Below the pieces are notes generated by a model. That model made no database searches, was not told where the DNA came from, and saw only the letters and a program-made list of their open reading frames with translations. Shown piece by piece: positions 5,601 to 43,983 of a stretch of DNA of 45,328 nucleotides. The position numbers were made by a program, and so were the translations under genes. The stretch is from positions 1-45,328 of IMG/VR virus record IMGVR_UViG_3300037129_000080, one strand, 5' to 3'. The stretch's first letter is position 1, and each line of letters opens with the position of its first letter. Source of the DNA: a virus.

Positions 5601-6421
5601 CCATGGAACGAAAACATCTAGGATGGCATAAGCCGACACTTGAGCAGCAGGTCCGCGCGCTTCGCGGTTCTCACCCCGAGGCAGGCGACAGCATCCTCGC
5701 CGGCATCACGGCGGCGCCGTCGAGTGACCTGAGCGCGCAGACGTGCGACCTCGACCAGGGGCAACTCGGAAGCTGCACGGCCAACGGTATCGCACAGGGC
5801 GTGTTTGTGGCCGAGATGGTGGCCGGGCTTCCCGCTGCGGTGCTGGCTCGGCTATGGCTCTATTTTTCTGAGAGGGCGCTCGAAGGCACGATCAGCCAGG
5901 ACGCCGGGGCGAACATCGGCGACGGCTACCGAATCCTAGCCGGCAAGGGAATTCCGCCCGAGTCGGCCTACCCCTACGACATCTCGAAGTTCACGCGCGA
6001 CCCAGGGCCGGCCGTTGACCGGCTGGCCTTCGATTCCAAGGGCGCGCTGGGTGTGAACTACCACCCGATCAGCAGCACGGGCGCCACGCTGATCAGCGAC
6101 GTCGAGAAAGCACTTACGGCAAAGATGGCCGTGACTTTTGGTTGCTCTGTTTCGGAGGAGTTCTGCTCGACGATTCCGAGCGGGACGGTGCAGGCCCCGA
6201 AGTCGCAGGCCGACGTAGCTGGCGGGCATTGCATGTGTGTGTGCGGGCACGACCACGCAGGCAAGCGTTTTCTCGTGAAGAATTCTTGGGGCCGCGATTG
6301 GCATGACCCGTCCGCCCCCGCGGGATGCTTCTGGTTCGCCTATTCCTGGTTCACCGATCCAAATTTCGGCGCATCAGATTGCTGGTGCGTGCTCGTGGTG
6401 CCGAAAGGAATCGTACAATGA
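5597..6421 (+). CDS. Papain-fold (C1A) cysteine protease
   Basis: The 274-aa protein carries the full papain layout: oxyanion Gln54 and nucleophile Cys60 in DQGQLGSCTANG, His211 in GGHCMCVCGHD and Asn229 in VKNSWG. No signal peptide is visible, and the first 50 residues look like a short propeptide-like region. C1A peptidases cut proteins. Their presence between a holin and a small lipoprotein suggests either an unusual lysis-associated enzyme that reaches the envelope through the holin lesion, or a factor that digests host or rival proteins. The ATG overlaps the preceding stop. The active-site residues all appear present, so it is probably active. Confidence 0.88.
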   Translation: MTMERKHLGWHKPTLEQQVRALRGSHPEAGDSILAGITAAPSSDLSAQTCDLDQGQLGSCTANGIAQGVFVAEMVAGLPAAVLARLWLYFSERALEGTISQDAGANIGDGYRILAGKGIPPESAYPYDISKFTRDPGPAVDRLAFDSKGALGVNYHPISSTGATLISDVEKALTAKMAVTFGCSVSEEFCSTIPSGTVQAPKSQADVAGGHCMCVCGHDHAGKRFLVKNSWGRDWHDPSAPAGCFWFAYSWFTDPNFGASDCWCVLVVPKGIVQ

Positions 6422-6675
6422 AAACCCTCGCTCTGATTCTCTCCCTCGCGTTCGCCAGTTGCGCAACCACCACGCCCTGCCCGGTCGACGTAACCAAGCC
6501 CTGCCCCACGCCGGCTGCGACGTGCGCAACCGCGTGCGCTCAAGGTGCGAAGCTCAAGTGCCTCTGGGCGACACCTACGCCAATGGGTGCCAGTTGCGAA
6601 ACCGTGTGTACCAACGCGGCGGCCACAGTCCCGTGGAATGTGAAGGCGTTGACCTCGGCGAGTACCTGCCAATGA
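6418..6675 (+). CDS. Small Cys-rich lipoprotein
   Basis: An 85-aa protein with a signal peptide ending in a lipobox (LAFASC, Cys at residue 15), then a Cys/Pro/Thr-rich mature part with about nine Cys. It should be lipid-anchored on the periplasmic side. In size and position after lysis genes it could be an Rz1-like outer-membrane spanin subunit, but its sequence is not typical and no partner i-spanin is evident. The start overlaps the protease stop (ATGA). Confidence 0.65.
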   Translation: MKTLALILSLAFASCATTTPCPVDVTKPCPTPAATCATACAQGAKLKCLWATPTPMGASCETVCTNAAATVPWNVKALTSASTCQ

Positions 6676-6851
6676 GCCAAGAGCCATTCCCGGACGTGCG
6701 TCTCGTGCCGAAGCCGGACTGCACAACTCGCGGACACGTCGAGCGTGAAGACGACGACGGCGTGTTCTGCGAGGCGTGCGGAGAAGACCTACCGCGCGGA
6801 GGCTGGTCGCATGCGTGCGCGAAGGACGGCCGAGTCTTCATGGGTGGCTAG
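6672..6851 (+). CDS. Small Cys/His protein
   Basis: A 59-aa acidic protein with FCEACGEDLPRGGW and HACAKDG segments, a probable zinc site (C-x2-C plus His/Cys). It overlaps the lipoprotein stop by ATGA. Function unknown. Confidence 0.5.
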   Translation: MSQEPFPDVRLVPKPDCTTRGHVEREDDDGVFCEACGEDLPRGGWSHACAKDGRVFMGG

Positions 6852-6961
6852 TGATCTTCCAGGGCATCCGAATCGTGCTCATCACTCGCGAGCAATTCGA
6901 GCTTGCGGCGTGCGGATGGCTGTTCATTGAGGACGTCGAGAAGGTCAAGGCTGGGAGGTGA
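6851..6961 (+). CDS. Tiny hypothetical protein
   Basis: A 36-aa frame starting GTG that overlaps the previous stop by one base and the next GTG by four bases. The coupling at both ends is the only support; no motif. Confidence 0.35.
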   Translation: MIFQGIRIVLITREQFELAACGWLFIEDVEKVKAGR

Positions 6962-7344
6962 TCGTGCGATTCTGGGTGAACGGTCAGATGCCTGGGCTCA
7001 ACGAAGTCATTGAAGCATGTAAGGGGTGCGGCGGGCGCGGGTACGGCTACGCTCGCATGAAGAAGCAGTGGACATCCGACGTTGCATGGATGGCCAAGGC
7101 GGCGCAGATGGGTAAGGTTGGAGCCTACCGGCTAGAACTTCTGTGGGTGGCTCCCATCAACGACAACAAGGCGGAGATGGATCGGGACAACCGCGAGGCG
7201 GGAACGAAGTTCATCAATGACGGGCTCAAGGCGGCCAAGCTCATCCGGGATGACAGCCCGGCGTACTATCAGGGGAGTACGCACACTCACACGAAGGGGA
7301 CCAGGCCGGGCGTGTGGGTCACCGTGGTGCCGGTGGTAGGATAG
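6958..7344 (+). CDS. rusA: RusA-like Holliday-junction resolvase
   Basis: The 128-aa protein fits the RusA family. The acidic cluster MDRDN (Asp75, Asp77) is followed by KFINDGLKAAKLIRDDS (Asp88, Asp98/99), matching the acidic residues that hold Mg2+ in RusA. RusA dimers cut four-way DNA junctions, which in phages clears recombination intermediates before packaging. An added CKGCGGRG segment near residue 21 is unusual and might bind zinc. The GTG start overlaps the preceding stop. Confidence 0.85.
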   Translation: MIVRFWVNGQMPGLNEVIEACKGCGGRGYGYARMKKQWTSDVAWMAKAAQMGKVGAYRLELLWVAPINDNKAEMDRDNREAGTKFINDGLKAAKLIRDDSPAYYQGSTHTHTKGTRPGVWVTVVPVVG

Positions 7345-7348
7345 TTTC
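7334..7348 (+). promoter_or_regulatory. Possible extended -10 / leaderless start
   Basis: TAGGAT at 7337-7342 lies exactly 6 nt before the ATG at 7349, with TG just upstream. The spacing matches other -10 boxes in this window. AGGA within it could instead be a ribosome site, so this copy is ambiguous. Confidence 0.35.
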
Positions 7349-8716
7349 ATGCCCATCATCGCCAGAGATTTCTCGTACCTTCGCGGCCACCTGGTCGGAA
7401 TCAGCGACCGGATGCTCGCCGCGCATCTCGGCCACTACGCCGAGGAGGTGAAGCGATTGAACGCCATCGAGGCGGCCTATCCGCTCACGGACTGGGGCGA
7501 GGCGCCTCCGCCCAAGGTCGCGGCGATACTGACGGCGCCCGTGGCATCTCTGGAACTCAAGATTCAGGGCGCGCTTGCGGCGGCGATTCACCAGGTGAAG
7601 AAGGAGCTTCTGGCGGCCGGCGTGAACGTGTCGCCCAACTTCTACCTTGGCGACGATGATTGGTGGACGACCGACCGCGGGTTGAGCATCAACATCCCCT
7701 GGTACTTGGCCAACCCCACGCTGTGGCGGCTGGCGAACCGGCAGGAGGGCACGGCCTACTCGCAAGACGAGGTGCTCAAGTGTCTCCGCCACGAGATAGG
7801 GCACGCGGTCAATTACGCGCACGAGCTGTGGCGGCGCCCGGACTGGGAAGCGCTCTTCGGCGACTTTCGGATTCCGTACCGCGACGAGTTCCCATCGGAC
7901 GCTCGGAGCGAAGACTTCGTGGAGTACCTGACGGACGTGTCGGACCACTACGGCCAGAAGCACCCTGACGAGGACTGGGCCGAGACGTTCGCCTGCTGGC
8001 TGGACCCGACATCGCAGTGGGAGCAGGAATACGCGGACTGGCCCAAGGCCCTGGACAAGCTCCACTACGTGGCAGGCCTGGCCAAGGCAGGCGTCCTGAA
8101 CGCGGCGCCGACGAATCTCTACCCCGGACGTCCGGAGTCCTACCGCAAGCTCAAGGGCACGGTAGGTGAAGCGCTGGGCACGGGGCAGGGGGCGCGACCG
8201 TTCAAGAGCTTCGAGGGCTGGTCCGAGCATTCGGAGCTGCTGCGCCAAGAGCCGGCTGCCTACAACGCTGTCCGGTTGCATGAGCTGTACTTCGAGGCTC
8301 TCACGCGGAACAAGGACTACATCGGCGAAGTGCCGGACTTCGCGAAGATGCCCACGGGCGTCTTGCTCCGCGAGGTGACGAAGACCTGGGGCTCGATGGC
8401 AAGCTACCTGCTGGACCTGCGGGCAATCCTGGGAAGCGTTGAGCAGGGCTGGGCGCTCACGGTCTGGGATCCGCGCAGGAACGCCGTGCGGAACGCGCTG
8501 GTGGGCGGGGGCTACGAAGGCGTGCCGGCCGGCTGCCCGATTCTGCTGGCCATCGACGCTTCGCCGGATGCGTACATGATGGATTACGGCGCACGCAAAG
8601 ACGTGGGCATGGCCGCGGCGTTCCGCAACCTGGACTGGAACGTGGTGGCCATGAGGTTGGCGCCCTATGCGCAGGCGGACGAGCCGGAGGGCGAAGAAGT
8701 GGAGGCTGCTGGATGA
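7349..8716 (+). CDS. SOD-like protein with inserted zinc-metallopeptidase domain
   Basis: The 455-aa protein looks like a composite. Residues 1-45 resemble the N-terminal hairpin of Fe/Mn superoxide dismutase, with His26 in the place of the first metal ligand. About 60-245 form a zincin-like domain with HEIGH (148-152) and a likely third ligand Glu212. About 290-440 resemble the SOD C-terminal domain: LHELYFE with His311, GWALTVW, ILLAIDASPDAYMMDYG and a final NLDW segment. The usual fourth SOD ligand (His of WEHAY) is Asp407. It may therefore be a structural or altered SOD fold carrying a peptidase. Adjacent genes are nucleases; no signal peptide is seen. Confidence 0.65.
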   Translation: MPIIARDFSYLRGHLVGISDRMLAAHLGHYAEEVKRLNAIEAAYPLTDWGEAPPPKVAAILTAPVASLELKIQGALAAAIHQVKKELLAAGVNVSPNFYLGDDDWWTTDRGLSINIPWYLANPTLWRLANRQEGTAYSQDEVLKCLRHEIGHAVNYAHELWRRPDWEALFGDFRIPYRDEFPSDARSEDFVEYLTDVSDHYGQKHPDEDWAETFACWLDPTSQWEQEYADWPKALDKLHYVAGLAKAGVLNAAPTNLYPGRPESYRKLKGTVGEALGTGQGARPFKSFEGWSEHSELLRQEPAAYNAVRLHELYFEALTRNKDYIGEVPDFAKMPTGVLLREVTKTWGSMASYLLDLRAILGSVEQGWALTVWDPRRNAVRNALVGGGYEGVPAGCPILLAIDASPDAYMMDYGARKDVGMAAAFRNLDWNVVAMRLAPYAQADEPEGEEVEAAG

Positions 8717-11971: not shown

Positions 11972-12141
11972 CCACCCGAGGCGAGCGCCGCTCCGAACGC
12001 CGCTTCCTGCGCGAGCTTCGCCAGGACCGCAGGCGAGAGGTTCGCCGCCCTCACGCGCCCGCCTACTCGCGCGAGGAGTTGGTTCGCATCGGGCGTTCCG
12101 ACCTGGACTTCAGGCTCGATGTTATGGGCCTGTTCCTCTAA
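11968..12141 (+). CDS. Small Arg-rich protein
   Basis: A 57-aa highly basic protein (ERRSERRFLRELRQDRRRE) beginning with GTG that overlaps the previous TGA. The stop codon lies at the left edge of a sequence block repeated after the capsid gene. Probably nucleic-acid binding. Confidence 0.4.
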   Translation: MTTRGERRSERRFLRELRQDRRREVRRPHAPAYSREELVRIGRSDLDFRLDVMGLFL

Positions 12142-12244
12142 AATCGAAAGACTCAACTTGCGCCTATCACCACACAGCGTTATTGAATGATTCCAGGCAC
12201 CTAGGCGAGGGCGGCGCATTAAAACGCTCAAAACAGCTTGAGCG
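12139..12244 (+). ncRNA. Repeated 3'-UTR element, copy 1
   Basis: From the TAA at 12139 a block of about 55 nt (ATCGAAAGAC, CAACTTGCGCCTATCACC, TGATTCC) closely matches the sequence that follows the capsid stop at 28313. After it comes a 7-bp hairpin (CGCTCAA/TTGAGCG, 12225-12244). Two conserved copies that both begin at stop codons suggest a terminator, RNA-processing signal or small RNA. Confidence 0.5.
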
Positions 12245-17185: not shown

Positions 17186-18887
17186 CACCCTCACGGGCGG
17201 ACCCGCTCCGCAGATGCAGATTCCTCGCAGCGAGGAAGTCAAGAAGTGGTTCTACACCAACGCGATCACCGGAGAAACCGAACGATTCCGCCGGCTGGAT
17301 AGGTACGAGGCCGTTTGGCGAACTACCCACTACATGCACCTGAAGCAAGATTGGTGGGGCATGACCGCCGACCAGATGGAGACTATCAGCCCATCGGTCC
17401 AGGTTCCCGCCGGGTTCGAGCAGCCGGCTATCAACATGTCCGTGCGAATGAAGCGGCCGACGGCGCCCTTCAACCTCGGCATGGCCATCAACAAGCGATT
17501 CACGGGACTTCTGTTCTCCCAAGCTCGCCGGCCGGTGGTTGAGGTTGAGGGCGACGATGACACGCAGGACTACTTGCAGGCCTGCATGCAGCAGATGCGC
17601 TTCTTCTCGAAGATGACCGCGGCCCGGAACATGGGCGGAGGGACCGGGACCGTGCTCGTGACGGCGCACCTGCGCGAGGGTAAGTTTTCGCTTGAGGTGC
17701 ACAACGCCAAGCACTGCCAGGTGCTCTGGAAGGACAAACGGACACAGACGCCTCTCGCGGTGCTGAAGCTGTACCGCTACCCCGTGGAAGAGGTGGAGCT
17801 CGACGACAAGGGGAACCAGCGTGGTACGCGCGTGGTCGAGTACCTCTATCGGCGCATCATCACCGAAGACGACGACACCGTGTTCAAGCCGGTGAAAATC
17901 AGCCCCAACGTGGACATGAATTGGGAAGTCGAGTCACAGGCCGTGCACGGGCTCGGGCGCTTTCCGGGCATCTGGTGCCAGAACTCCGAGGTGCTCGAAA
18001 GCGAAGACGGCGACCCCGACTGCCACGGCGTTTGGCAAATCTTCGATACCGTGGACAGGCTGGACTCGCAGGCGAACAAGGGGCTTCTGGCCAACTGCGA
18101 CCCGACGACCGTCATTCGCACCGACCCGAAAGAGGTCGCGCAGATGGGCGGCAGCGTGCGGAAGGGTTCGGACAACGCGCTCTACGTCGGGGCAACGGGC
18201 GACGCGCACTACATGGAAATCAGCGGAGCCGGGATATCGGCGGCGCTGGTGTATTGCGACAGCAAGGTCAGTCAAGCCCTGAAGGTCGCTCGCTGCGTGA
18301 TGCTGGACCCAGAACAGATGTCAGGCGCCGCGCAGTCGGCGAAGGCAATGGAGTTCCTGTACGCTCCCATGCTCGAAGCGGCCGACGACTTGCGGGCGCA
18401 GTACGGGGACATTCTCGTAATCGGGCTTCTGGAGCTGATCGACGCCATGGCCCGCGCCTTCGAGGGCAAGCCCACCAAGGCGCTGAACGAGAAGGGCGAA
18501 GAGGTGGACGCGGTCTTTCGGCTCAACCTCCCGCCCCGTCCCGATGGCACCCCTCGCAAGCTGGGCAAGGGTGGGCACATCAAGATCACGTGGGGGCCGT
18601 ACTTCGCCCCGACCGAGACCGACCGCCAGATTGAAATCGGGAACATCGTTGCCGCGAAGGAAGGCGGCATCATCGACGAGGAGACCGCGGTCAACAAGGG
18701 CGCCCAACTGTTCGGCATCAAGGACACCAAGAAGCTTCTGGAGACGATTCGCGCCCAGAAGAAAGACGAGCTTGACATGATGGGCTATGGTGAGCTGCCG
18801 GGCAAGCCAAAGCTGCCCGGTCAACCCGGCGTGCCAAAACCTAAAGCACCTGCCATGCCGCAAGCTGGCAACGGGGGCAAACCTTGA
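17178..18887 (+). CDS. Portal protein
   Basis: The 569-aa protein has portal features: an N-terminal YEAVWRTTHYMHLKQDWWGM segment, a beta core (HNAKHCQVLWKDKRTQTPLA, YLYRRIIT), a clip-like middle and a long C-terminal helix around VSQALKVARC...QSAKAMEFLYAP, with a Pro/Lys-rich tail. Size and position before the Mu-F-like, scaffold and capsid genes fit. Portals form the 12-mer at one capsid vertex through which DNA is packaged. The putative -10 lies 6 nt upstream. Confidence 0.82.
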   Translation: MADTLTGGPAPQMQIPRSEEVKKWFYTNAITGETERFRRLDRYEAVWRTTHYMHLKQDWWGMTADQMETISPSVQVPAGFEQPAINMSVRMKRPTAPFNLGMAINKRFTGLLFSQARRPVVEVEGDDDTQDYLQACMQQMRFFSKMTAARNMGGGTGTVLVTAHLREGKFSLEVHNAKHCQVLWKDKRTQTPLAVLKLYRYPVEEVELDDKGNQRGTRVVEYLYRRIITEDDDTVFKPVKISPNVDMNWEVESQAVHGLGRFPGIWCQNSEVLESEDGDPDCHGVWQIFDTVDRLDSQANKGLLANCDPTTVIRTDPKEVAQMGGSVRKGSDNALYVGATGDAHYMEISGAGISAALVYCDSKVSQALKVARCVMLDPEQMSGAAQSAKAMEFLYAPMLEAADDLRAQYGDILVIGLLELIDAMARAFEGKPTKALNEKGEEVDAVFRLNLPPRPDGTPRKLGKGGHIKITWGPYFAPTETDRQIEIGNIVAAKEGGIIDEETAVNKGAQLFGIKDTKKLLETIRAQKKDELDMMGYGELPGKPKLPGQPGVPKPKAPAMPQAGNGGKP

Positions 18888-19282
18888 GCCTACGCTTGGC
18901 GTTTGATTTTGATGGGACACTTGCCCAGGGCAAGCCCCTATCGTTGCGCCAAGGCGCTGCTGAGGCCCTTGCGGCGCTCAAAAAGGCAGGACACCACATC
19001 ATCCTGCACTCGTGCCGGTGCAACCCCTTTGACCCGGCGCCCCAACTGGAAGAAGAGGCGGCGCGTTGGTATCAGACCGGCGAGGTGTCCCCGCGAGTCA
19101 CTGACCAGTGGGAGCGCTTCGCCGAGATGCGGGATTTTCTGCGGGCGAACGGGCTGTGGAGCTTATTCGACGAGGTCTGGCAGCATCCGGGAAAGCCCGA
19201 GGCCGACCGTATGTTTGATGATTTGTGTGAGGAGCCAGACTGGCCGAGAGTAGAACTTGAATTCGGAGGGATTCAATCATGA
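18884..19282 (+). CDS. HAD-superfamily phosphatase-like protein
   Basis: The 132-aa protein begins with LAFDFDGTLAQG, the HAD motif I (nucleophile Asp8, Asp10), followed by ALKKAGHHIILHSCRC (motif II, Ser) and a later EADRMFDDL acidic segment. It starts with TTG overlapping the portal stop (TTGA). HAD enzymes transfer phosphate from nucleotides or nucleic-acid ends; the compact size suggests a nucleotide or polynucleotide phosphatase. Confidence 0.75.
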   Translation: MSLRLAFDFDGTLAQGKPLSLRQGAAEALAALKKAGHHIILHSCRCNPFDPAPQLEEEAARWYQTGEVSPRVTDQWERFAEMRDFLRANGLWSLFDEVWQHPGKPEADRMFDDLCEEPDWPRVELEFGGIQS

Positions 19283-22428: not shown

Positions 22429-22447
22429 CGCCGCACTAATGATCGAG

Positions 22448-22462
22448 TGGTATACTTTCGCC
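22448..22462 (+). promoter_or_regulatory. Extended -10 promoter of homing endonuclease
   Basis: TGGTATACT: TG at 22448-22449 and TATACT at 22451-22456, ending 6 nt before the ATG at 22463. No ribosome site precedes that ATG. This is a clear leaderless arrangement without a good -35 element. Confidence 0.6.
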
Positions 22463-23272
22463 ATGAGGAAGAGCGGCCGGATACCAACCGAAGAATTGCG
22501 AAAACTCTACATCGACGAGAAGCTAAGCACTCGCCAGATCGGGGCTCGCGTGGGCAAGTCTGGACGAACTGTTGTTCAGTGGCTCAAGGAGGCTGGCATT
22601 CAGGCTCGCACCAATTCCGAATCGAGATTTGGCAGAGCGCTCCCGGATAGCGCGATCCTTGCGTCCGTGCGCGCGAGAAGAAAGCACGTTGTCCCCGGAC
22701 GCTCCGACATCGGGTACAAGGTCGACGGGTATGGCTACGTGCAGATATGGGACGAAGAGAGTCAGTGCTACCACAAGGAACACCGCATGGTCATGGAGCG
22801 AAAGCTCGGGCGCCCGTTGCTACCTACCGAGGATGTTCACCACATCAACGAGATCAAGACTGACAATCGCGAAGAGAACCTGGAACTCAAGGCTTCCAGG
22901 TCGGAGCATCTGAAACTGCACGCCGAGGAGCGAGGCCGCACTCCAGAAGGACGGTTCCCATCTGACGGAGCAAAAGGGACGTGGGAGAAGCACGCATGCA
23001 AGATCGCAGAGTGCACGCGGGAGCACAAGGGATACGGGCTGTGCTCGGAGCACCTGCGGTGGGCAAAGAATAGAGATGCTCGTTTGCCCGAGGAAATTCT
23101 CGCTAGCGTTCCGGTAAGCTTCACAAAATGTTCCGTGAATGGATGCGAGCGCGGGAGCGCATCTCGTGGCCTATGCCAACCGCACTACTCATGGTGGAGA
23201 ACCAAGGGCGAAGTCCCGACTCATCTCATCGGAGAGACGGGGCGAGGCCATCCACCCATCAAGACGCAGTAG
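22463..23272 (+). CDS. HNH homing endonuclease with HTH domain
   Basis: The 269-aa protein begins with a HTH (STRQIGARVGKSGRTVVQWL), continues to an HNH core with EHRMVMERKLGRPL, DVHHINEIKTDNREENLEL and SEHLKLHAEERG (HNH_3-like), and ends with two short Cys/His repeats (CKIAECTREHKGYGLC and CSVNGCERGSASRGLC). Freestanding homing enzymes cut a homologous site in genomes lacking them and are copied in by repair. The flanking recoded and native 3' ends of the Mu-F-like gene fit that behaviour. The ATG at 22463 follows the -10 by 6 nt. Confidence 0.87.
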   Translation: MRKSGRIPTEELRKLYIDEKLSTRQIGARVGKSGRTVVQWLKEAGIQARTNSESRFGRALPDSAILASVRARRKHVVPGRSDIGYKVDGYGYVQIWDEESQCYHKEHRMVMERKLGRPLLPTEDVHHINEIKTDNREENLELKASRSEHLKLHAEERGRTPEGRFPSDGAKGTWEKHACKIAECTREHKGYGLCSEHLRWAKNRDARLPEEILASVPVSFTKCSVNGCERGSASRGLCQPHYSWWRTKGEVPTHLIGETGRGHPPIKTQ

Positions 23273-26950: not shown

Positions 26951-28315
26951 ATGGCAAACTTTCCTGATTCTTCCCTGACCGTGACGGGGTTCAACCCCTC
27001 GGTCGTTGCGATTGCGCAAGACCGCACCCTGCAACGCGTGTTCCGTGATGCGGCCTTCCCGCGCCTCCTGTATCGCATGGAAGCGATTGGTGAGTTGTGG
27101 CCGGTCAACCTCGGCGCCAACCAGACGTTCACTCGTGCGGGGCTCATCGAGCCTTCCACGCGTCCTCTGCAACCCGGTGTGGATCCGACTCCCGCCAGCT
27201 ACTCGGTAGAGCAGTGGGAAGCCACGGCCCAACAGTGGGGCAAGGCAATCGACACGCACATGCCCACCAGCTACGTCACGCTGGCGTCGGTCTACCTGCG
27301 GAACATGCACCAGCTCGGCCTGCATGCTGGTCAGTCGCTCAATCGCGTTGTCCGCGACAAGCTATTCAACGCCTACGTGGCCGGCAACACGGTTGCCACT
27401 GTGTACGGCGGCGGCTCGGCTCTCCCGGTCGTGAACCTTTGCGGCTTCACCAAGCAAATCTTCAACGGTCGGCCCAACCCCGTGAGCGCAGCCAACCCGC
27501 TGGCCGTCACCATCGGCGGCGTGGCCAACACTGTCGTCGGGTTCACCTCGACGTACCCTGGTGACGAAATCCACGGCGGAACCTTGACCCTTGGAACTGC
27601 GGTCGGTGCCATTGCGGCCCGCACGGCAGTCCTCGCGAACAATCGCTCGCGCATCGTTTGGTCGGGCGGCGGCTCGCGCGTCGATGACGTCACCTCGACC
27701 ACCTTCCAGACCCTGGCCGACATCCGCACTGCGGTTGCCCAGATGCGCTTCGACAACATCCCCCCGCACGAGGATGGGTCCTACCACTGGCACGGCGACC
27801 CCATCAGCGAGTCGCAGATGTTCTCGGACACCGAGTTCCAGAATCTCAATCGGTCCATGCCGGACTACATCCACTATCGCCGGTTCGCGATGGCGTACCT
27901 CTTGGGCGTCACCTTCTACCGCAACACCGAGGCTCCCAACACGTCGACCGTGTCGCAGAACCCGGCCAACGGATTCACCTCGGGCTGGGAAGACACGAAC
28001 CCCCTGAGCGTGACCCTTCACCGCTCGATCATCACTGGCCAAGGCGCCATCGAAGAGAAGTACCTCGACGAGTCCCGGTACATCTCGGAAGCCGGCATCC
28101 AAGGCAAGATCGGCGAGTTCGCAGTCGTCAACGGCGGCGTGCAGGTCATGACCGAGCGGATCCGCTTGGTGCTTCGTGCGCCTCTGGACCGCCTCCAGCA
28201 GACCACGGGCGCGGCCTGGTCGTTCTCCGGTGACTGGCCGATCCCGACCGACTCCGTGACAACGTCGAGCGCCGCGGCCTTCAAGCGCGCGGTGGTTATC
28301 GTCCACGGCTCGTAA
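26951..28315 (+). CDS. Major capsid protein
   Basis: The 454-aa protein has capsid traits: an N-terminal arm (PDSSLTVTGFNPSVVAIAQD), a helix near SYVTLASVYLRNMHQLGLHA, a Gly/Ala/Val-rich core and a final DSVTTSSAAAFKRAVVIVHG strand. It follows the scaffold gene and has the size of an HK97-fold shell protein. TTGGAG supports the start. The stop codon begins a conserved non-coding element. Confidence 0.88.
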   Translation: MANFPDSSLTVTGFNPSVVAIAQDRTLQRVFRDAAFPRLLYRMEAIGELWPVNLGANQTFTRAGLIEPSTRPLQPGVDPTPASYSVEQWEATAQQWGKAIDTHMPTSYVTLASVYLRNMHQLGLHAGQSLNRVVRDKLFNAYVAGNTVATVYGGGSALPVVNLCGFTKQIFNGRPNPVSAANPLAVTIGGVANTVVGFTSTYPGDEIHGGTLTLGTAVGAIAARTAVLANNRSRIVWSGGGSRVDDVTSTTFQTLADIRTAVAQMRFDNIPPHEDGSYHWHGDPISESQMFSDTEFQNLNRSMPDYIHYRRFAMAYLLGVTFYRNTEAPNTSTVSQNPANGFTSGWEDTNPLSVTLHRSIITGQGAIEEKYLDESRYISEAGIQGKIGEFAVVNGGVQVMTERIRLVLRAPLDRLQQTTGAAWSFSGDWPIPTDSVTTSSAAAFKRAVVIVHGS

Positions 28316-28620
28316 ATCGAAAGACGCAACTTGCGCCTATCACCACAACGCGTAACTGAACGATTCCCAGGGCTTAGGTGCCCTGGGAGCGTTGTGGTGC
28401 AAAGATTCCATCGGGATTCGTCCCGTTTGGTTCACACCCATTCGTGGCGTGTGAAAGCCGGTCGACCTTGTGTTGACCGTTTACCCGCAAACTGTACCGG
28501 GGGACTTCGGACCTTTCCGGTCGTGTTCGTGGGGCTGAAAACTGGGGTCCAGATACTCGCTCCGGCGTGCGATAATCGCCTGGTCCGACTATCAGCTTCG
28601 GCTGCCTAGTCAATTTCTGG
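28316..28620 (+). ncRNA. Structured non-coding RNA region after capsid gene
   Basis: There is no supported gene in 28316-28658. An 11-bp stem (CACCACAACGC 28341-28351 / GCGTTGTGGTG 28389-28399) encloses a 9-bp stem (TCCCAGGGC 28365-28373 / GCCCTGGGA 28380-28388). Three perfect UUCG-loop hairpins follow: CGGGA-TTCG-TCCCG (28412-28425), CCA-TTCG-TGG extended by TTCACAC/GTGTGAA (28431-28455) and CAGC-TTCG-GCTG inside GACTA/TAGTC (28587-28611). A T-run follows at about 28636. The first 60 nt match the element at 12139. Confidence 0.6.
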
Positions 28621-28658
28621 ACCTCAGCCTTTCAGTTTTTTTTCGGAGGGAAACGCAG

Positions 28659-28955
28659 ATGGCAAAATTCAGGCTCACAGACGAACCAATCGAAGTCGGA
28701 AAGTCGGCACCCGCTCCGGTGACCGCGAAGGTAGAGGAGCAGGTTTCTGCTCCCGAGGTAGAGGCTGCTCCCGATGCGCCGCTGCCGCCCCCCATGCCGG
28801 CCGAGAGGAAGTTCCGAGTGGTGGCTGATGCCAAGGTGTGCAGCGGGGCTGCTCATTACCTGCTCAAGAAGGGGCACGTCGTGTCCTCGTTTGGATACAA
28901 CATCGAGGCCCTGAAGAAGTCGAACGTTCAACTTGAGGAGATCGTCCAGGCCTAA
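28659..28955 (+). CDS. Small virion/neck-associated protein
   Basis: A 98-aa protein with TCGGAGGG upstream. Ala/Pro/Glu-rich first half, then a small folded part (RKFRVVADAKVCSGAAHYLLKKGHVVSS). Position directly after the capsid gene suggests a head or neck factor. No family recognised. Confidence 0.55.
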   Translation: MAKFRLTDEPIEVGKSAPAPVTAKVEEQVSAPEVEAAPDAPLPPPMPAERKFRVVADAKVCSGAAHYLLKKGHVVSSFGYNIEALKKSNVQLEEIVQA

Positions 28956-29390: not shown

Positions 29391-30032
29391 ATGAAGACCT
29401 GCACCAAATGCAAGACAGTCAAGTCCGAGAGCGAGTTCTTCAAGGGCCGCATGGGCAAACCGCGATCTTGGTGTAAGGCGTGCGATCAGGCTGCCAATCT
29501 GGAGTATTGCAGGGCGAACAAGAATAGGGCGAAGGTGTGGCGCACAAACCGCAGGTTGAAGAACAAGGGGAAGGCGCACGGCGTGCCCCGGAGCGACGTG
29601 CTGAAAACCTGCCCGACGTGCAAGACCGCCAAGCCGGAAATCAATTTCGGCCGCGACCGAGGCAGAGGGGACGGATTGGCTACGGAATGCAAGGCGTGCC
29701 GGCTGGCCTACAGGCTGGCAAACAAGGGCAGACTGAAGACATGGAACAGGGAACTGCGTCTCGCCAACCAGCAGAGGTACGCGCTGTATCGCACTCAACG
29801 CCGAGCCAAGCTGGCGGGCGCGCTGTCGACGCTTACCCCGGTGCAATGGGAAGCGATCCTTGAGCTTTATGGAAATTCCTGCGCCTACTGCGGGAAACCG
29901 GGCAAGATGACTGTAGATCACGTGGTGCCAGTATCTCGCGGTGGAGGGACAACTCCCGACAACGTGGTGCCGGCTTGCAAGTCGTGCAACTCATCCAAGG
30001 GCGCACGCACACCTCAAGAATGGAGAAATTGA
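29391..30032 (+). CDS. HNH endonuclease with duplicated zinc ribbons
   Basis: The 213-aa protein has two CxKCK...CKAC ribbons (about 4-31 and 69-98), a basic linker and a canonical HNH: YGNSCAYCGKPGKMTVDHVV, PDNVVPACKSCNSSKG. It sits in a 7-bp-spaced gap between head and neck genes, a usual location of homing endonucleases. There is no good ribosome site, so it may be translated by coupling to the preceding stop (3 bp away). Confidence 0.9.
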   Translation: MKTCTKCKTVKSESEFFKGRMGKPRSWCKACDQAANLEYCRANKNRAKVWRTNRRLKNKGKAHGVPRSDVLKTCPTCKTAKPEINFGRDRGRGDGLATECKACRLAYRLANKGRLKTWNRELRLANQQRYALYRTQRRAKLAGALSTLTPVQWEAILELYGNSCAYCGKPGKMTVDHVVPVSRGGGTTPDNVVPACKSCNSSKGARTPQEWRN

Positions 30033-38837: not shown

Positions 38838-39503
38838 GTGAATCTGATGATCGGAGTGAAATTTGGCAGATTGCTTGTTCTAAGTGAACACGACATCCAG
38901 AATCGCAAGCGGCGATATGTCTGCCAATGCGACTGCGGAGAGCAAAGAGTTGTACTGGGAAGATCGTTGCGCCAGGGGCATACGAGATCATGCGGTTGCG
39001 TCCAGAGAGAGAGAGCCTCCGCTGCTAACATGACACACGCGAACACGGCAGGCGGGCGCTGGTCCCCGGAATATACGTGTTGGCACAGCATAATTCAGCG
39101 TTGCACCAATCCCAATGTGCACAACTTCGAAAAGTACGGAGGTCGTGGGATCTCAGTGTGCGAGCGTTGGCTAAAGTTTGAGAACTTCCTGTCCGACATG
39201 GGGCCGCGCCCCCCAAAGCGCAGCGTAGACCGCATCAACAACGACGGAAATTACGAGCCTGGGAACTGTCGATGGGCAACGCGAGTTGTCCAAATGCACA
39301 ACCAGGGGATGAGAAAGAACAATACGAGCGGATATAAGGGCGTGCGATGGCACGAGCGACTCCGCAAATGGGTGGCGCAAATCACTATCAACGGGGAGCG
39401 CCGGCACCTCGGATGCTTCTGCGAAAAGGAAGAGGCCATTGCGGCATACGCCGCTGCATGCACAACTTCACAGGAGGCAGGGGGCGCGAGCGGCCATGCC
39501 TGA
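38838..39503 (+). CDS. HNH-AP2 homing endonuclease
   Basis: The 221-aa protein has three parts: a FGRLLVL...CQCDCGEQRVVLGRSL...SCGC N-terminal module, an HNH-like YGGRGISVCERWLKFENFLS...DRINNDGNYEPGNCRWAT core, and a C-terminal AP2 DNA-binding domain (GYKGVRWHERLRKWVAQI, ending EEAIAAYAAAC). Freestanding HNH-AP2 enzymes are mobile in phages. Its stop overlaps the remnant hub start by 8 bp, so before the CRISPR insertion it was probably coupled to the hub gene. Confidence 0.88.
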   Translation: MNLMIGVKFGRLLVLSEHDIQNRKRRYVCQCDCGEQRVVLGRSLRQGHTRSCGCVQRERASAANMTHANTAGGRWSPEYTCWHSIIQRCTNPNVHNFEKYGGRGISVCERWLKFENFLSDMGPRPPKRSVDRINNDGNYEPGNCRWATRVVQMHNQGMRKNNTSGYKGVRWHERLRKWVAQITINGERRHLGCFCEKEEAIAAYAAACTTSQEAGGASGHA

Positions 39504-39615
39504 GCCCCGACACTATCGCCCCGCTTGGTTCTTGGAGCTGTTCGTCCGCCTTGAAGACTTTGGCGCCTCCGCCAGCGCCCGTACCACCATCCTGTCTCAA
39601 GATCCAAGCTCCTGA
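39496..39615 (+). pseudogene. Cut-off copy of baseplate hub gene start
   Basis: ATG at 39496 begins a 39-codon frame. Its first 24 residues are identical to the first 24 of the hub protein (starting MPEPRHYRPAW), but 13 of 72 bases differ, all silent apart from ATG versus GTG as start. The two then diverge, and this frame runs into the first CRISPR repeat and ends. It uses GC-rich codons like the phage core, so it is likely the original start, separated from its gene when the CRISPR-cas12 cassette inserted with its own version. Confidence 0.9.
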
Positions 39616-39843
39616 GCAGCTTTTGAAATGTGACCCGCACGGCTCCGAGCAGGCCGTACCGCTCTAGTCTCAAGATCCAAGCTCCTGAGCAGCTTTTGAA
39701 ATGACACCGACGAGCCAGTGTTTCGGCAAATCGTAGTGTCTCAAGATCCAAGCTCCTGAGCAGCTTTTGAAATTGCGCGGCGCTGTCCGCGTGTCAGGCC
39801 TGCCCCGGTCTCAAGATCCAAGCTCCTGAGCAGCTTTTGAAAT
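39594..39843. CRISPR. CRISPR array, 4 repeats and 3 spacers
   Basis: Four identical 36-nt repeats start at 39594, 39667, 39738 and 39808. Each begins GTCTCAAGATCC and ends AGCAGCTTTTGAAAT, with an inner stem AAGCT-AGCTT. Spacers are 37 nt (39630-39666), 35 nt (39703-39737) and 34 nt (39774-39807), all unlike each other. The array ends 20 bp from the cas12 stop. On the minus strand it would be co-transcribed with cas12; there the repeat ends TTGAGAC next to the spacer, as in several type V families. Orientation is not proven. No cas1, cas2 or tracrRNA is seen. Confidence 0.95.
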
Positions 39844-39863
39844 GGGCCCATTGAAAACAACAA

Positions 39864-41672
39864 TCATTTCGCCATTCTGGCAAGCGATTCGCGAGTAGCT
39901 CGAAAAGAGCGCGGATCCGTGTTAGCTTGGCCTAGTGATTCTGCGCCTTTAGGAGCTGACACAATCGGCGTCACCTCGCCGCTCGCGCTGGCGGATAGTA
40001 GATTGCGGGTGTTGTTCACGTCCCGGTCCCAGGTAAGCCCACACGACACGCAGCGATGGACGACGTCCTGCACCTCTTGTTTGGCACCGCAGTGATTGCA
40101 TCGCTTCGTACCGTCCACCGACGTGGCGGCTACGACCTCGCAGCCGTACTTGGCGCACGCCTTGATGATCTTCGAGCGCAGGTCTGCTGGCGATGCGAGC
40201 ACGCGATTGTGCCTAGCCGACTGACCTCCGGTCTCTTCCTTCTCGACGGCAGCCCGCTTGGCCACATCGGCGATCTTGAAGGTGTCGATGGTGACGCGAG
40301 CGTTCTCGGTGGCCAGACGCTTCGCCTCCACCTGATAGAAATTGTCTCGGAAGCGCTGGCAGTAGGCTTGCTCGTCTTGCGCCCACTTCATCAAGTGTCG
40401 GTACCGTTCGCGCCACTCGTCCATGGTGGCAAAGATTCCGGTGTCGCCGTCAAAGCGGTGCTCCCGCCAGTACCAGACCAGATCCATCATGCGGTGCGGA
40501 GATCGCCACTTGTCGACGTTCTCGAATTCGGCGCGGAACCCATCGGGACACTCGCCGACCTTCAACCATGCCGCGAGCGCGGCCTTCGCGGTGTTGAATT
40601 TGTCGTCACAGAGCCCGCGCAGCTCCTCTGCCTTGGCGAAGCGCCCAAGGATGTCGGCCGGTAGCCTGATCTCGCGGATGCCATCATCCCCGTTGACGGT
40701 AGCCACGCGCAGTCCGCCGTCGATGGCGAGCCAGCCGAAATTGATCGCAGCGGATGCACTTCGAGTTTCCTTGGTAGGAGTTGGGAAGAAAGACGCGGAC
40801 TCAAGCACTACGCACAACTCGTATGACCACGGCATCGTCACGTTGTGGGGCCGGCGGGTGATGTACGCATCCTTCACGCGCCCATCGGCAGGAAGCGGCC
40901 GATGCATGAGTAGTGGAAATAGCGCCCACACGGGCTTACGCTCTTCCGTCCCGATGCGGAACCGCAGAAGCTTTTCCTGCTCACGTCGCTTCTCTCCTAT
41001 CGGATGGCCGGGCTTTGATGGGCGCGCCAACGGCTCGATCTGCATGAGCGTGCTCGACGCCAAACCGGCAACGTCGATACCGCCGCAGAAATGCACGCCG
41101 ATGCGGGACTTGCACAAATGCACCGGTGCCTCGTTGTACGCTGGCTCTCCGCGCGCATCGGACTTCGCGCGCTGGGCATTGCCCTCGACCAGGAGATATG
41201 TCCCCCAGTAGGTGCCCGGCCGCAGCGCCTTGACGGCATCTTTGGCCTCGGTGTCGATGGCAGCGGCGGCGGCCTTGAGTTCTGCGCTCTCGTCGGCGAC
41301 ATCGCGGACCGCGCGCAACCTGGTTAGCACCTCCTTGCGCTTGGCGCGCGCCTCAAGCAGTCCAGCTTTGAGACCAGCATCCACAGCCCGCGTTTTCGTT
41401 CGCGCCTTCTGCGCCGACATGTCAGCAGCGATGGCGTCGCACGTGGCAACCGCCTGCGCGTATTCGGCTTCGAGCGTGGCCAACTCCGGAAACATGGCCG
41501 AGCGGGCGCGCCGGTACCTGTCGCGGCGGACGCGCTCGATTGTGATCAGACGATTGTAATGAATGCGTGCGTCTGGGAAGGCTTCATGTACCAACGGAGT
41601 AGTGTCGCCCATCGGCTGGCCAAGGTGGTACTTGTAGACTCGCGTCGGGAGCGTGCTTGTCTTTCGTTTCAT
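39864..41672 (-). CDS. cas12m: Miniature type V effector, Cas12m-like
   Basis: The 602-aa protein has a helical, basic N-terminal half, a middle recognition part and a C-terminal RuvC/zinc region. RuvC-I is AAINFGWLAIDGGLRVATV, with Asn311 where Asp is expected. RuvC-II is RVTIDTFKI with Asp463 in place of Glu (Glu456 is an alternative). The zinc ribbon is CNHCG (525, 528) with CVSCG (541, 544), and RuvC-III is WDRDVNNTRN (Asp551). Length and motif style fit Cas12m/V-U1, whose studied members bind DNA guided by crRNA and silence without cutting. It sits on the opposite strand to the tail genes, beside a CRISPR array. Start ATG has GAGG 8-11 bp upstream. Confidence 0.82.
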   Translation of the reverse strand: MKRKTSTLPTRVYKYHLGQPMGDTTPLVHEAFPDARIHYNRLITIERVRRDRYRRARSAMFPELATLEAEYAQAVATCDAIAADMSAQKARTKTRAVDAGLKAGLLEARAKRKEVLTRLRAVRDVADESAELKAAAAAIDTEAKDAVKALRPGTYWGTYLLVEGNAQRAKSDARGEPAYNEAPVHLCKSRIGVHFCGGIDVAGLASSTLMQIEPLARPSKPGHPIGEKRREQEKLLRFRIGTEERKPVWALFPLLMHRPLPADGRVKDAYITRRPHNVTMPWSYELCVVLESASFFPTPTKETRSASAAINFGWLAIDGGLRVATVNGDDGIREIRLPADILGRFAKAEELRGLCDDKFNTAKAALAAWLKVGECPDGFRAEFENVDKWRSPHRMMDLVWYWREHRFDGDTGIFATMDEWRERYRHLMKWAQDEQAYCQRFRDNFYQVEAKRLATENARVTIDTFKIADVAKRAAVEKEETGGQSARHNRVLASPADLRSKIIKACAKYGCEVVAATSVDGTKRCNHCGAKQEVQDVVHRCVSCGLTWDRDVNNTRNLLSASASGEVTPIVSAPKGAESLGQANTDPRSFRATRESLARMAK

Positions 41673-41751: not shown

Positions 41752-43983
41752 GTGCCTGAGCCGAGACATTACCGCCCCGCGTGGTTTCTGGAGTTGTTCG
41801 TTCGCCTCGAAGATTTTGGCGCGGCAGATAACTCCACGGACCAGTCGAGTGACGTGCCCTACGACACGAAGGTCAAGGCCATCGACGCGCAGATAGCCAC
41901 GAACGAACAGGCGATAGCTACCGAGAGCGCGGGGGCGCTGGCCTTCCTGACGAAGACAGACATCACCTCGGCCAGCCTACGTTCGCAAAACAAGACCCTC
42001 GTTGCCCAGAAGGCCCGGCTACCCAGGGGAGCATCGACGGACGCCGTGAAGGGCGACGAATTCTCGATCCAATTCGTGACCGTGCCGAGCGAGCTTGAGA
42101 TCGAAGACCGGGGCTTTCGTGAGGCCGCCGTCCTCACCGCGACGTTTCCATTCATCGACATGCCCTTGGACCCGCGAATCATCCGCGAGTGCCGGGTTGA
42201 GGGCTACATGGGCACCGTCAACGCCACGGACTTCGGCGAGCCGGACACCTGGCACCTGAAGCCCATCCCGTCGAAGACCTGCATTCGTCGGTTCGTGGGC
42301 TACGTGGACATGCCCGAGATGAGCCACTCGGACGCCGACGCTTCGATCCACATCAAGGCCCGGAGCTACGAATCGACGCTCATCGACGGGAAGATCAACG
42401 CCCACGCGCCTGCCTACAAGATCGAGGGGGACGAAGAATACCTCACGACCTACGTCAACCGGATCCTTTCGCAGTACCCGCCGACCTCGGGAGACACGGG
42501 CGGGGATGCGTTCCAAGCTGTGTGGTTTGCGGGCGACCCGGCGAAAGAGCCCAAGCTCGGGCGGAAAGATTTGCTTCGCTCCCTCCAGAGCGCGAAGAGT
42601 CGCAACCAATCGAACGGGGCCCAGCCCGGCCAGCCTCCGCCTGTGCAGGAAGAGTCGCCCGCGGCAGAAGTAGATCCAGACGGGACAGGGGACAGCGCCC
42701 AGAACGGCCAAGCCTCAATGCCTCCGAAGTCCGTCACCCCGGACGGCATGAGCATTTGGGATCTCATCACGCAGGCGTGCGAGCTTTGCGGGTGCATGCC
42801 CATCTACCAGCCGGCCCTATCGGCGGTGACGACCGACAAAGATCCGCCTCTCACAGGATCGAAGAATGGCGGGAAGAACCCCGCCGACGTTGTGACGTTC
42901 GGGCCGAAGAACGACATCAGCAACTACTTGCTCCTGACCACGCCCCAAGGGTTTCTCGATGACATTACCGACGACCACATTCGGGTGAAGGGCGGCTCTC
43001 GCGACCGCTTCCACCGCGACTTCAAAGACGGCGACAAGCCGGCCTGGACTTCCGATGTTCGGTTCATGGTGTGGGGGCACAACATCAAGTCGATGAAGCT
43101 GTCCCGCAAGATGGGGCGGACGCGGCCGACGGCGGTCGAGGTGCGCGCCTACAACCCGGACGCATCCGCGGCCCTGCGGGTTATGAAGGCGCGGTTCCCA
43201 TCGACGAAGGCTGACATCCACGCCGCAGGGCAGGGAGTCGGCAAGGCCAAGGGCAAGACGCGGAAGCAAACCGGGAAGGGCAAGGGGAAGGTGGACATCG
43301 TCCGTACCTTCGTGCTCCAAGGCGTCCGAAACGTGCAGCAGCTCGAAGACGCGGCGGTGTCCATCTACCACCAGCTCACGCGGGCAGAACTCTCCATCGA
43401 GCTTGAGACAGACGACTTATCGAGCTACATGGATCCGACGGCCAGCCTTGAGCAGCAGAGCCTCGTGGTGGATGAGAACAGCGACCCGGACATCATGCGC
43501 CTGTGCGCGGGCACTCCGGTGCGGGTAACGGTGGCCAGCCAGAAGGACGACAACCTCATCATCTCGACCCTCTCGGACTTCTACGGCTCCGGGGTGAACA
43601 ACGTCGAGAAGCTCATCCGGCAGCAGCAAGCCAAGTGGGGCACATGGCTCGGACCAGAGGCAACCTCGGCCCAGGTCACCACCATGATTCAGAAGGTCCA
43701 GCGCGCCTACAACGCGGCCAAGATTCCGGACATCTTCTACGTTCGGAGCATCAAGACGAAGTGCTCGGGCGAGGAGGGGCAGGGATTCTCGGCTACGATG
43801 GAACTCGTGAACTACATGCCCGACAACGACCCGGCTGGTATGTCCATCGAAGATCGGGACATGAACGACAGGCGCAAGATCAAGAAGAGAGGGAAGAAGG
43901 CGGTCAAGGCTGACACCACGGCCAAGCGCTCGGAAGCCCTCAGAGAGAATGCGCCCGCAGTCGCGGCAAAGGACCGCCAGTAA
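41752..43983 (+). CDS. Baseplate hub protein (gpD/late-control-D-like)
   Basis: The 743-aa protein matches hub proteins in outline: an early beta domain (DEFSIQFVTVPSELEIEDRG...), SYESTLIDGKINAHAPAYKI, a central GMSIWDLITQACELCGCMPI typical of D-protein hubs, a Lys/Gly-rich linker (VGKAKGKTRKQTGKGKGK), and a C-terminal beta part. GTG start. The first 24 codons are recoded compared with the copy at 39496. An alternative name is tail protein D. Hubs carry the spike and link it to the tube. Confidence 0.8.
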   Translation: MPEPRHYRPAWFLELFVRLEDFGAADNSTDQSSDVPYDTKVKAIDAQIATNEQAIATESAGALAFLTKTDITSASLRSQNKTLVAQKARLPRGASTDAVKGDEFSIQFVTVPSELEIEDRGFREAAVLTATFPFIDMPLDPRIIRECRVEGYMGTVNATDFGEPDTWHLKPIPSKTCIRRFVGYVDMPEMSHSDADASIHIKARSYESTLIDGKINAHAPAYKIEGDEEYLTTYVNRILSQYPPTSGDTGGDAFQAVWFAGDPAKEPKLGRKDLLRSLQSAKSRNQSNGAQPGQPPPVQEESPAAEVDPDGTGDSAQNGQASMPPKSVTPDGMSIWDLITQACELCGCMPIYQPALSAVTTDKDPPLTGSKNGGKNPADVVTFGPKNDISNYLLLTTPQGFLDDITDDHIRVKGGSRDRFHRDFKDGDKPAWTSDVRFMVWGHNIKSMKLSRKMGRTRPTAVEVRAYNPDASAALRVMKARFPSTKADIHAAGQGVGKAKGKTRKQTGKGKGKVDIVRTFVLQGVRNVQQLEDAAVSIYHQLTRAELSIELETDDLSSYMDPTASLEQQSLVVDENSDPDIMRLCAGTPVRVTVASQKDDNLIISTLSDFYGSGVNNVEKLIRQQQAKWGTWLGPEATSAQVTTMIQKVQRAYNAAKIPDIFYVRSIKTKCSGEEGQGFSATMELVNYMPDNDPAGMSIEDRDMNDRRKIKKRGKKAVKADTTAKRSEALRENAPAVAAKDRQ

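Follow-up and report, generated by a model that had tools for sequence, protein, structure and literature searches.

Intrinsic terminators and attenuator leaders present a helix and then a U-run just before the next gene, and the pRNA of phage phi29 is a phage structural RNA that is linked to capsid function. The put RNA of phage HK022 is a cis-acting antitermination RNA of about 70 nt, which forms two stem-loops near the early promoters (PMC9378689). It binds the zinc-binding domain of the RNA polymerase beta' subunit and suppresses termination. GOLLD and ROOL are phage-encoded RNAs of unknown function that are often found near tRNA islands, and, together with OLE, they are large ornate RNAs known via covariation (PMC12286853). 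The cabRNA of staphylococcal phages is transcribed within the coding region of terS-terL, and phages remain viable after it has been heavily recoded (PMC10686824).

Here, we describe a structured RNA of about 330 nt that lies directly 3′ of a phage gene for the major capsid protein (MCP). The nearest known systems (put, GOLLD/ROOL/OLE, and cabRNA) differ from it in size, architecture or position. Like put, it would be a structured phage RNA on the nascent transcript, close to where a transcribed block begins, and action in cis is plausible for both. In contrast to put, it comprises a 3′ domain with a predicted pseudoknot and a U-run and is located at a late-gene junction, so that neither its size nor its architecture is that of put. 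With GOLLD, ROOL, and OLE it shares the properties of a large, ornate structured RNA that is known through covariation, but, unlike GOLLD and ROOL, it is tied to the junction of the MCP gene and a small gene, and it has no match in Rfam. The cabRNA, at about 400 nt, is likewise a structured RNA of phages and comes from the head and packaging gene region, whereas the RNA described here is intergenic and shows strong covariation. As in intrinsic terminators and attenuators, a helix and then a U-run precede the next gene, but here a conserved folded domain of about 90 nt, with the predicted pseudoknot, takes the place of the “loop”. The differences from the phi29 pRNA are the missing Rfam match and the apparent repeated loss of the RNA family while the MCP was kept; an RNA of the phi29 type is a required component of the packaging motor, and repeated loss argues against such a role.

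The locus and the fold of the RNA

The whole stretch of DNA that was analyzed (“the window”) is an IMG/VR virus record of 45,328 bases, and all RNA-bearing relatives are metagenomic virus records. The features of the locus, all on the plus strand, are as follows (L003, L004 and similar labels denote relatives, and R1 is the covariance model introduced below):

26951–28315, plus strand: MCP gene, 454 amino acids, 5′ neighbor of the RNA (phrog_1357 major head protein, E 9e-10)
28316–28643, plus strand: structured RNA element as a whole (z −5.5, lowest tile of the window; R1 match at 28484–28636)
28325–28335, plus strand: P0, small 5′ hairpin (CGC/GCG in the window versus CAC/GTG in L003, a compensatory change)
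28341–28399, plus strand: P1, 11-bp stem 28341–28351/28389–28399 with nested 9-bp stem 28365–28373/28380–28388 (from the fold)
28408–28430, plus strand: H1, UUCG hairpin with a 1×2 internal loop (L009 and L010 have the same geometry)
28431–28455, plus strand: H2, UUCG hairpin
28459–28479, plus strand: H3, hairpin with a CUUGU pentaloop
28484–28533, plus strand: H4, two-part stem 28484–28488/28529–28533 and 28496–28500/28517–28521 with a UUCG cap (R1 model)
28534–28636, plus strand: P5, closing helix of the 3′ domain, 28534–28540/28630–28636 and 28542–28552/28617–28627 (covariation, L003/L004 and A3)
28557–28580, plus strand: predicted H-type pseudoknot, S1 28557–28560/28569–28572 and S2 28564–28567/28577–28580 (by eye and automatic search)
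28587–28611, plus strand: P7, UUCG hairpin
28636–28643, plus strand: U8 run directly 3′ of P5, terminator-like; its first U also closes P5
28644–28649, plus strand: ribosome-binding site of the next gene, CGGAGG shortly 5′ of the ATG at 28659
28659–28955, plus strand: small downstream gene, 98 amino acids, found with or without the RNA

An earlier note, made from the sequence of the window, had placed a folded RNA at 28316–28640 between capsid and neck genes. The location is right, but the U-run extends 3 nt further, and the best bounds are 28316–28643. The upstream gene indeed encodes the MCP, whereas the assignment of a neck gene downstream found no support: the 98-aa protein is small and conserved, its N-terminus is disordered and its C-terminal domain rich in beta structure, and it gave no family match and no confident fold match. 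Elsewhere in the late region of the window, at least three genes are HNH or endonuclease VII-like (22439–23272, 29391–30032, and 38838–39503). Positions 18884–19282 of the window, adjoining the portal gene, match phosphoheptose isomerase (phrog_1238, E 3e-9).

Homologous RNAs are present at the junction of the MCP gene and the small gene in dozens of uncultivated phages. The MCP relatives in isolated phages are distant throughout (27–35% identity), including those of Streptomyces phage Kromp (35%) and of two Komagataeibacter phages (29%). The RNA is absent from Kromp, and in phiKX1 the coat gene abuts the next gene and leaves no space for it. The host genomes searched yielded a single distant MCP match, without the RNA, and the RNA region has no DNA similarity to sequenced phages.

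The minimum free energy of the fold is −162.4 kcal/mol, compared with −130.5 ± 5.8 kcal/mol for shuffled versions (z −5.5; none of 100 shuffles was as low). A 325-nt tile at the RNA is the best-folding tile of the window (z −4.95; mean of the 139 tiles 0.0, standard deviation 1.2), and the next lowest tile (z −3.1) overlaps the RNA. A second copy (89%) of the first 54 nt of the RNA (28314–28367) lies at 12141–12194, likewise directly 3′ of the stop codon of a gene; the remainder of the RNA is absent there, and the copy has no stable fold by itself.

The 11-bp stem and the nested 9-bp stem of P1, which had been described as perfect, are both present and exact. The claim of three perfect UUCG hairpins was correct in outline and imprecise in detail. 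There are four UUCG loops, in H1 (28417–28420), H2 (28441–28444), H4 (28506–28509), and P7 (28597–28600). The classical C-G closing pair is found in P7 and in H4, where an A·A mismatch is adjacent, while H1 and H2 are closed by A-U, and thus P7 alone combines it with a perfect stem. UUCG is the commonest tetraloop, with 29 instances versus 6 for the runner-up, and CUYGN loops occur in 20 of the 55 long gaps.

The nested stem of 20 bp right after the MCP stop codon in the window and the prevalence of UUCG would be compatible with an element for mRNA segmentation or stability, which might be cut, e.g. by RNase III, at P1, its hairpins shielding the 3′ end of the MCP mRNA and the 5′ end of the downstream mRNA. 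Such an element would not require the conserved pseudoknot and internal loops, and in several phages the RNA is not adjacent to the MCP gene; we regard this explanation as improbable. We tentatively prefer, at somewhat less than an even chance, that the RNA is a cis-acting, terminator-coupled leader at the boundary of the head genes and the next late-gene block.

Covariation in relatives

Searches with the MCP gave 14, 22, and 80 loci in overlapping sets, and the regions 3′ of the MCP gene were compared. At the same place, the relatives have RNAs that are strongly diverged in sequence and similarly built. Four of them (L007, L008, L011, and L012) can be aligned without gaps over 268 nt, and 98.2% of the cells are paired. 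Two-sided changes were found in 22 of the 84 pairs, compared with 0–2 in slid controls, and none of 500 shuffles reached this value. RNAalifold, run without a supplied structure, likewise returned 22 two-sided pairs. The window and its two nearest relatives contribute 17 further compensatory pairs, P1 among them, which has changed from AACG/CGTT to GGCG/CGCC in L003. Within H4, which has a counterpart in subtype B (see below), a compensatory change of P4b is present in L004. The covariation proves the fold, and the element is a conserved structured RNA.

The covariance model R1 was built for H4 and the 3′ domain from the same four relatives, leaving out the window. R1 recovers the window RNA at 28484–28636 with 60.7 bits and an E-value of 7e-9, E-values being rough by construction. 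With the same roughness, it also finds L004, L009, L003, L010, and L034, while L006 is marginal and L005 is not significant. Whole records with a match contain one copy each in the records searched, and a capsid-blind scan for subtype A gave 22 hits, of which R1 scores well only those already known beside the MCP. The view of the earlier note that this is a working RNA is thus borne out by covariation, by recovery with a model built without the window, and by exclusive synteny.

The fold, its covariation, and the recovery by R1 are in line with a leader. A conserved fold with a fast-changing sequence is also the architecture of a free-standing non-coding RNA, which would be transcribed late or from its own promoter and would act in trans by binding host or phage proteins, as a decoy, or in anti-defence. 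P5 together with the U-run would form its 3′ end, and processing at the long P1 stem would generate its 5′ end. This explanation is doubtful in absolute terms and nearly as likely as the leader. Against it, no copy was found elsewhere in the records searched, and an RNA acting in trans need not hold its position.

The pseudoknot and a second subtype

Inside the 3′ domain of both subtypes, an H-type pseudoknot was listed by eye in 41 sequences; the L005 row of this list has no verbatim match in the L005 DNA. Stem S1 is CCC/GGG in most sequences, CGC/GCG in the clade of the window, and CCG/CGG, CUG/CAG or CGG/CCG elsewhere. All S1 cells pair, a value that is inflated by the choice by eye, and there are 16 two-sided changes versus 2.5 in shuffled data. 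The closely related L129 and L192 differ here by an exact swap from CGG/CCG to CCG/CGG. In an automatic pseudoknot search, the best scores of 47 regions averaged 23.6, compared with 19.0 ± 0.74 for shuffled sets. For many regions, the search chose the same pseudoknot, typically 50–95 nt 5′ of the next start codon. Judged from these sequences, the RNA family contains an H-type pseudoknot. It could form the core of a new late phage RNA class that acts in trans and has a function unlike those of described phage RNAs (e.g. as an assembly factor, a binder of host machinery, or in anti-defence), which we consider unlikely.

More distant MCP relatives have a variant of H4 with the internal loop GCAAACCC/UGGAACCGC. 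When 2.9 million viral contigs were scanned for this loop without regard to the capsid gene, 87 stretches were obtained. Of the examined hits, 47 form the middle hairpin; nearly all of them are on the same strand as, and 170–850 nt 3′ of, an MCP gene of the family. One hit is located 2.5 kb 3′ of the MCP gene, and the others are on stretches that contain no MCP gene upstream. None of the loop hits without the hairpin has an MCP of the family upstream. Subtype B is therefore essentially exclusive to the neighborhood of this MCP family.

For 33 distinct copies of subtype B, the covariation of the flanking and inner helices is 0.83 versus 0.18 in shuffled data, with 94 two-sided changes versus 28.5; the inner helix had entered the selection of hits (via the hairpin energy), and the outer helix had played no part in it. 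R1 gives subtype B no score, and what links the two subtypes is their position, their gross architecture, and the pseudoknot that they share. On these grounds we treat them as subtypes of one element, and they may be strictly homologous.

Coding potential and known RNA families

The long open frame of the window and those of its more distant homologues are in different phases, and the encoded peptides are unrelated. Therefore, the open frame was rejected as a gene, and the region is non-coding, in agreement with the earlier claim that it holds no gene. The region also contains no tRNA or tmRNA. That note had named absent covariation and a conserved coding frame as results that would speak against a working RNA; covariation is extensive, and no reading frame is conserved.

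The proposed search of known RNA covariance models was carried out with all 4227 Rfam families. At the gathering score, neither the window nor any of 23 related loci matched a family, and up to E=10 there was no match in the window region or in L007. No description of this RNA was found in open-access papers. The RNA class appears to be new, as it is absent from Rfam and the open literature, and covariation and exclusive synteny further agree with the suggestion of an uncharacterized phage RNA class. The functional kind, a leader or a non-coding RNA, is already known.

The 3′ end, promoters, and inserted genes

At least four consecutive U residues are present within 70 nt of the start of the next gene in 29 of the 42 elements, and some of the 13 misses are due to wrongly chosen start codons. 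For 26 of these 29 elements, a helix spanning at least 55 nt ends 0–6 nt 5′ of the U-run; for the window, P5 spans 100 nt with 0 nt to the run of eight. This arrangement argues for a leader. A helix that is directly followed by a U-run is clear in the window, L003, L009, L010, and L034, and weak or absent in others. Many family members have U4 only, several nt away from the helix, and some have no U-run, which would make them poor intrinsic terminators. Also at odds with a leader, no alternative antiterminator fold or ligand was identified, and a length of about 300–500 nt with this many hairpins is more than expected of a simple attenuator.

Promoter-like sites (TTGACA-17/18-TAG..T) are located just 5′ of the RNA in L005 and L011 only. 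They fit a leader and, together with the terminator-like 3′ end, also a free-standing RNA. In the window region, the search for a sigma-70-like promoter was negative, which counts against the leader.

In several phages, foreign genes lie between the MCP gene and the RNA, i.e. an HNH gene in L011 and L133/L138, an HNH gene plus others in L169, and another gene in L034. The L169 segment (6200–8693 in reverse-strand coordinates) comprises the HNH gene and two further genes, one of which is dCTP deaminase-like by eye. No gene insertion between the RNA and the small gene was seen in the cases inspected, and in these the RNA is directly 5′ of the small gene. Thus, the RNA travels with the downstream gene and is tied more tightly to it than to the MCP gene, though it is limited to this phage family. 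The insertions are in accord with a leader of the downstream gene. In L011, L034, and L169 they make the RNA independent of the MCP mRNA, as expected for a free-standing RNA, but its constant place directly 5′ of the ribosome-binding site of the small gene in the cases inspected is not.

If the RNA is a leader, it would be transcribed following the MCP gene, or in some phages from a promoter of its own, and the transcript would fold into a series of hairpins plus a compact 3′ domain. The long-range helix P5 would close this domain and run into the U-run immediately before the next ribosome-binding site. P5 and the U-run might form a gate similar to an intrinsic terminator, with the folded pseudoknot domain as its “loop”. 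The stability of the 3′ domain, or a binding partner, could set how much transcription passes on, and the level of read-through would determine the ratio of capsid to downstream structural proteins. To the observed fold, covariation, pseudoknot, synteny, U-run position, and repeated loss, this reading would add transcription, termination or attenuation, and a ligand or partner. Control of late transcript levels, which had been proposed before, is plausible and the best guess, and the anatomy of the element is its support.

Distribution and apparent loss of the RNA

Among 78 distinct MCP loci, the gap between the MCP gene and the small gene has a bimodal length distribution, with 58–166 nt versus mostly 290–590 nt. 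About 10 changes are required to account for the RNA-less state on the MCP tree, and well-supported branches force at least six of them; the labels RNA-less and RNA-bearing are provisional and partly derived from the gap length. From this distribution, the RNA looks dispensable and repeatedly lost among relatives that keep the same MCP; repeated gain may have occurred in place of loss.

The essentially exclusive linkage to one MCP family would be expected of a virion or packaging RNA that, like the phi29 pRNA, helps to build or fill the capsid. The repeated loss while the MCP was kept disfavors such a role, as does the missing match to any Rfam family. A virion RNA, one of the roles considered in the earlier note, found no support and is highly improbable.

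The RNA-less gaps carry a single long hairpin, which has at least 9 bp in 15 of 16 cases, as seen by folding, and several are without a clear U-run. RNA-less and RNA-bearing gaps could not be told apart by counting simple terminators with perfect stems. The one long hairpin suggests that what these phages have in common is a structured junction, of which the RNA is an elaborated form. The bimodal gap and the retained hairpin are compatible with a leader, and hairpins without a clear U-run also fit mRNA segmentation or stability.

A CRISPR-like segment in the window

A separate observation concerns a gene for a 602-aa Cas12u1/Cas12f-like effector at 39864–41672 on the minus strand (PADLOC E 6e-83 over residues 10–562; Pfam Cas12f1-like_TNB). 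It adjoins a CRISPR-like array at 39591–39849 with four 36-nt repeats and three spacers of 34–37 nt. Together, the gene and the array look like a miniature, phage-borne CRISPR system of type V. No exact match to the cores of two spacers was found in IMG/VR. The segment is flanked by the copies of a 70-nt direct repeat (84% identical), at 39497–39566 and 41753–41822, and the right copy is at the start of a 743-aa gene, as would be expected after insertion of the segment or duplication of part of the 743-aa gene.

Implications

The results reveal a large RNA family, proven by covariation, at the place where capsid expression separates from the remaining structural genes, and the alignments and the covariance model are direct handles for mutagenesis. 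If the RNA is free-standing, it would represent a new class with a partner that could be found by pull-down. If the RNA is a regulator, phages would set the ratio of capsid to connector proteins with RNA alone.
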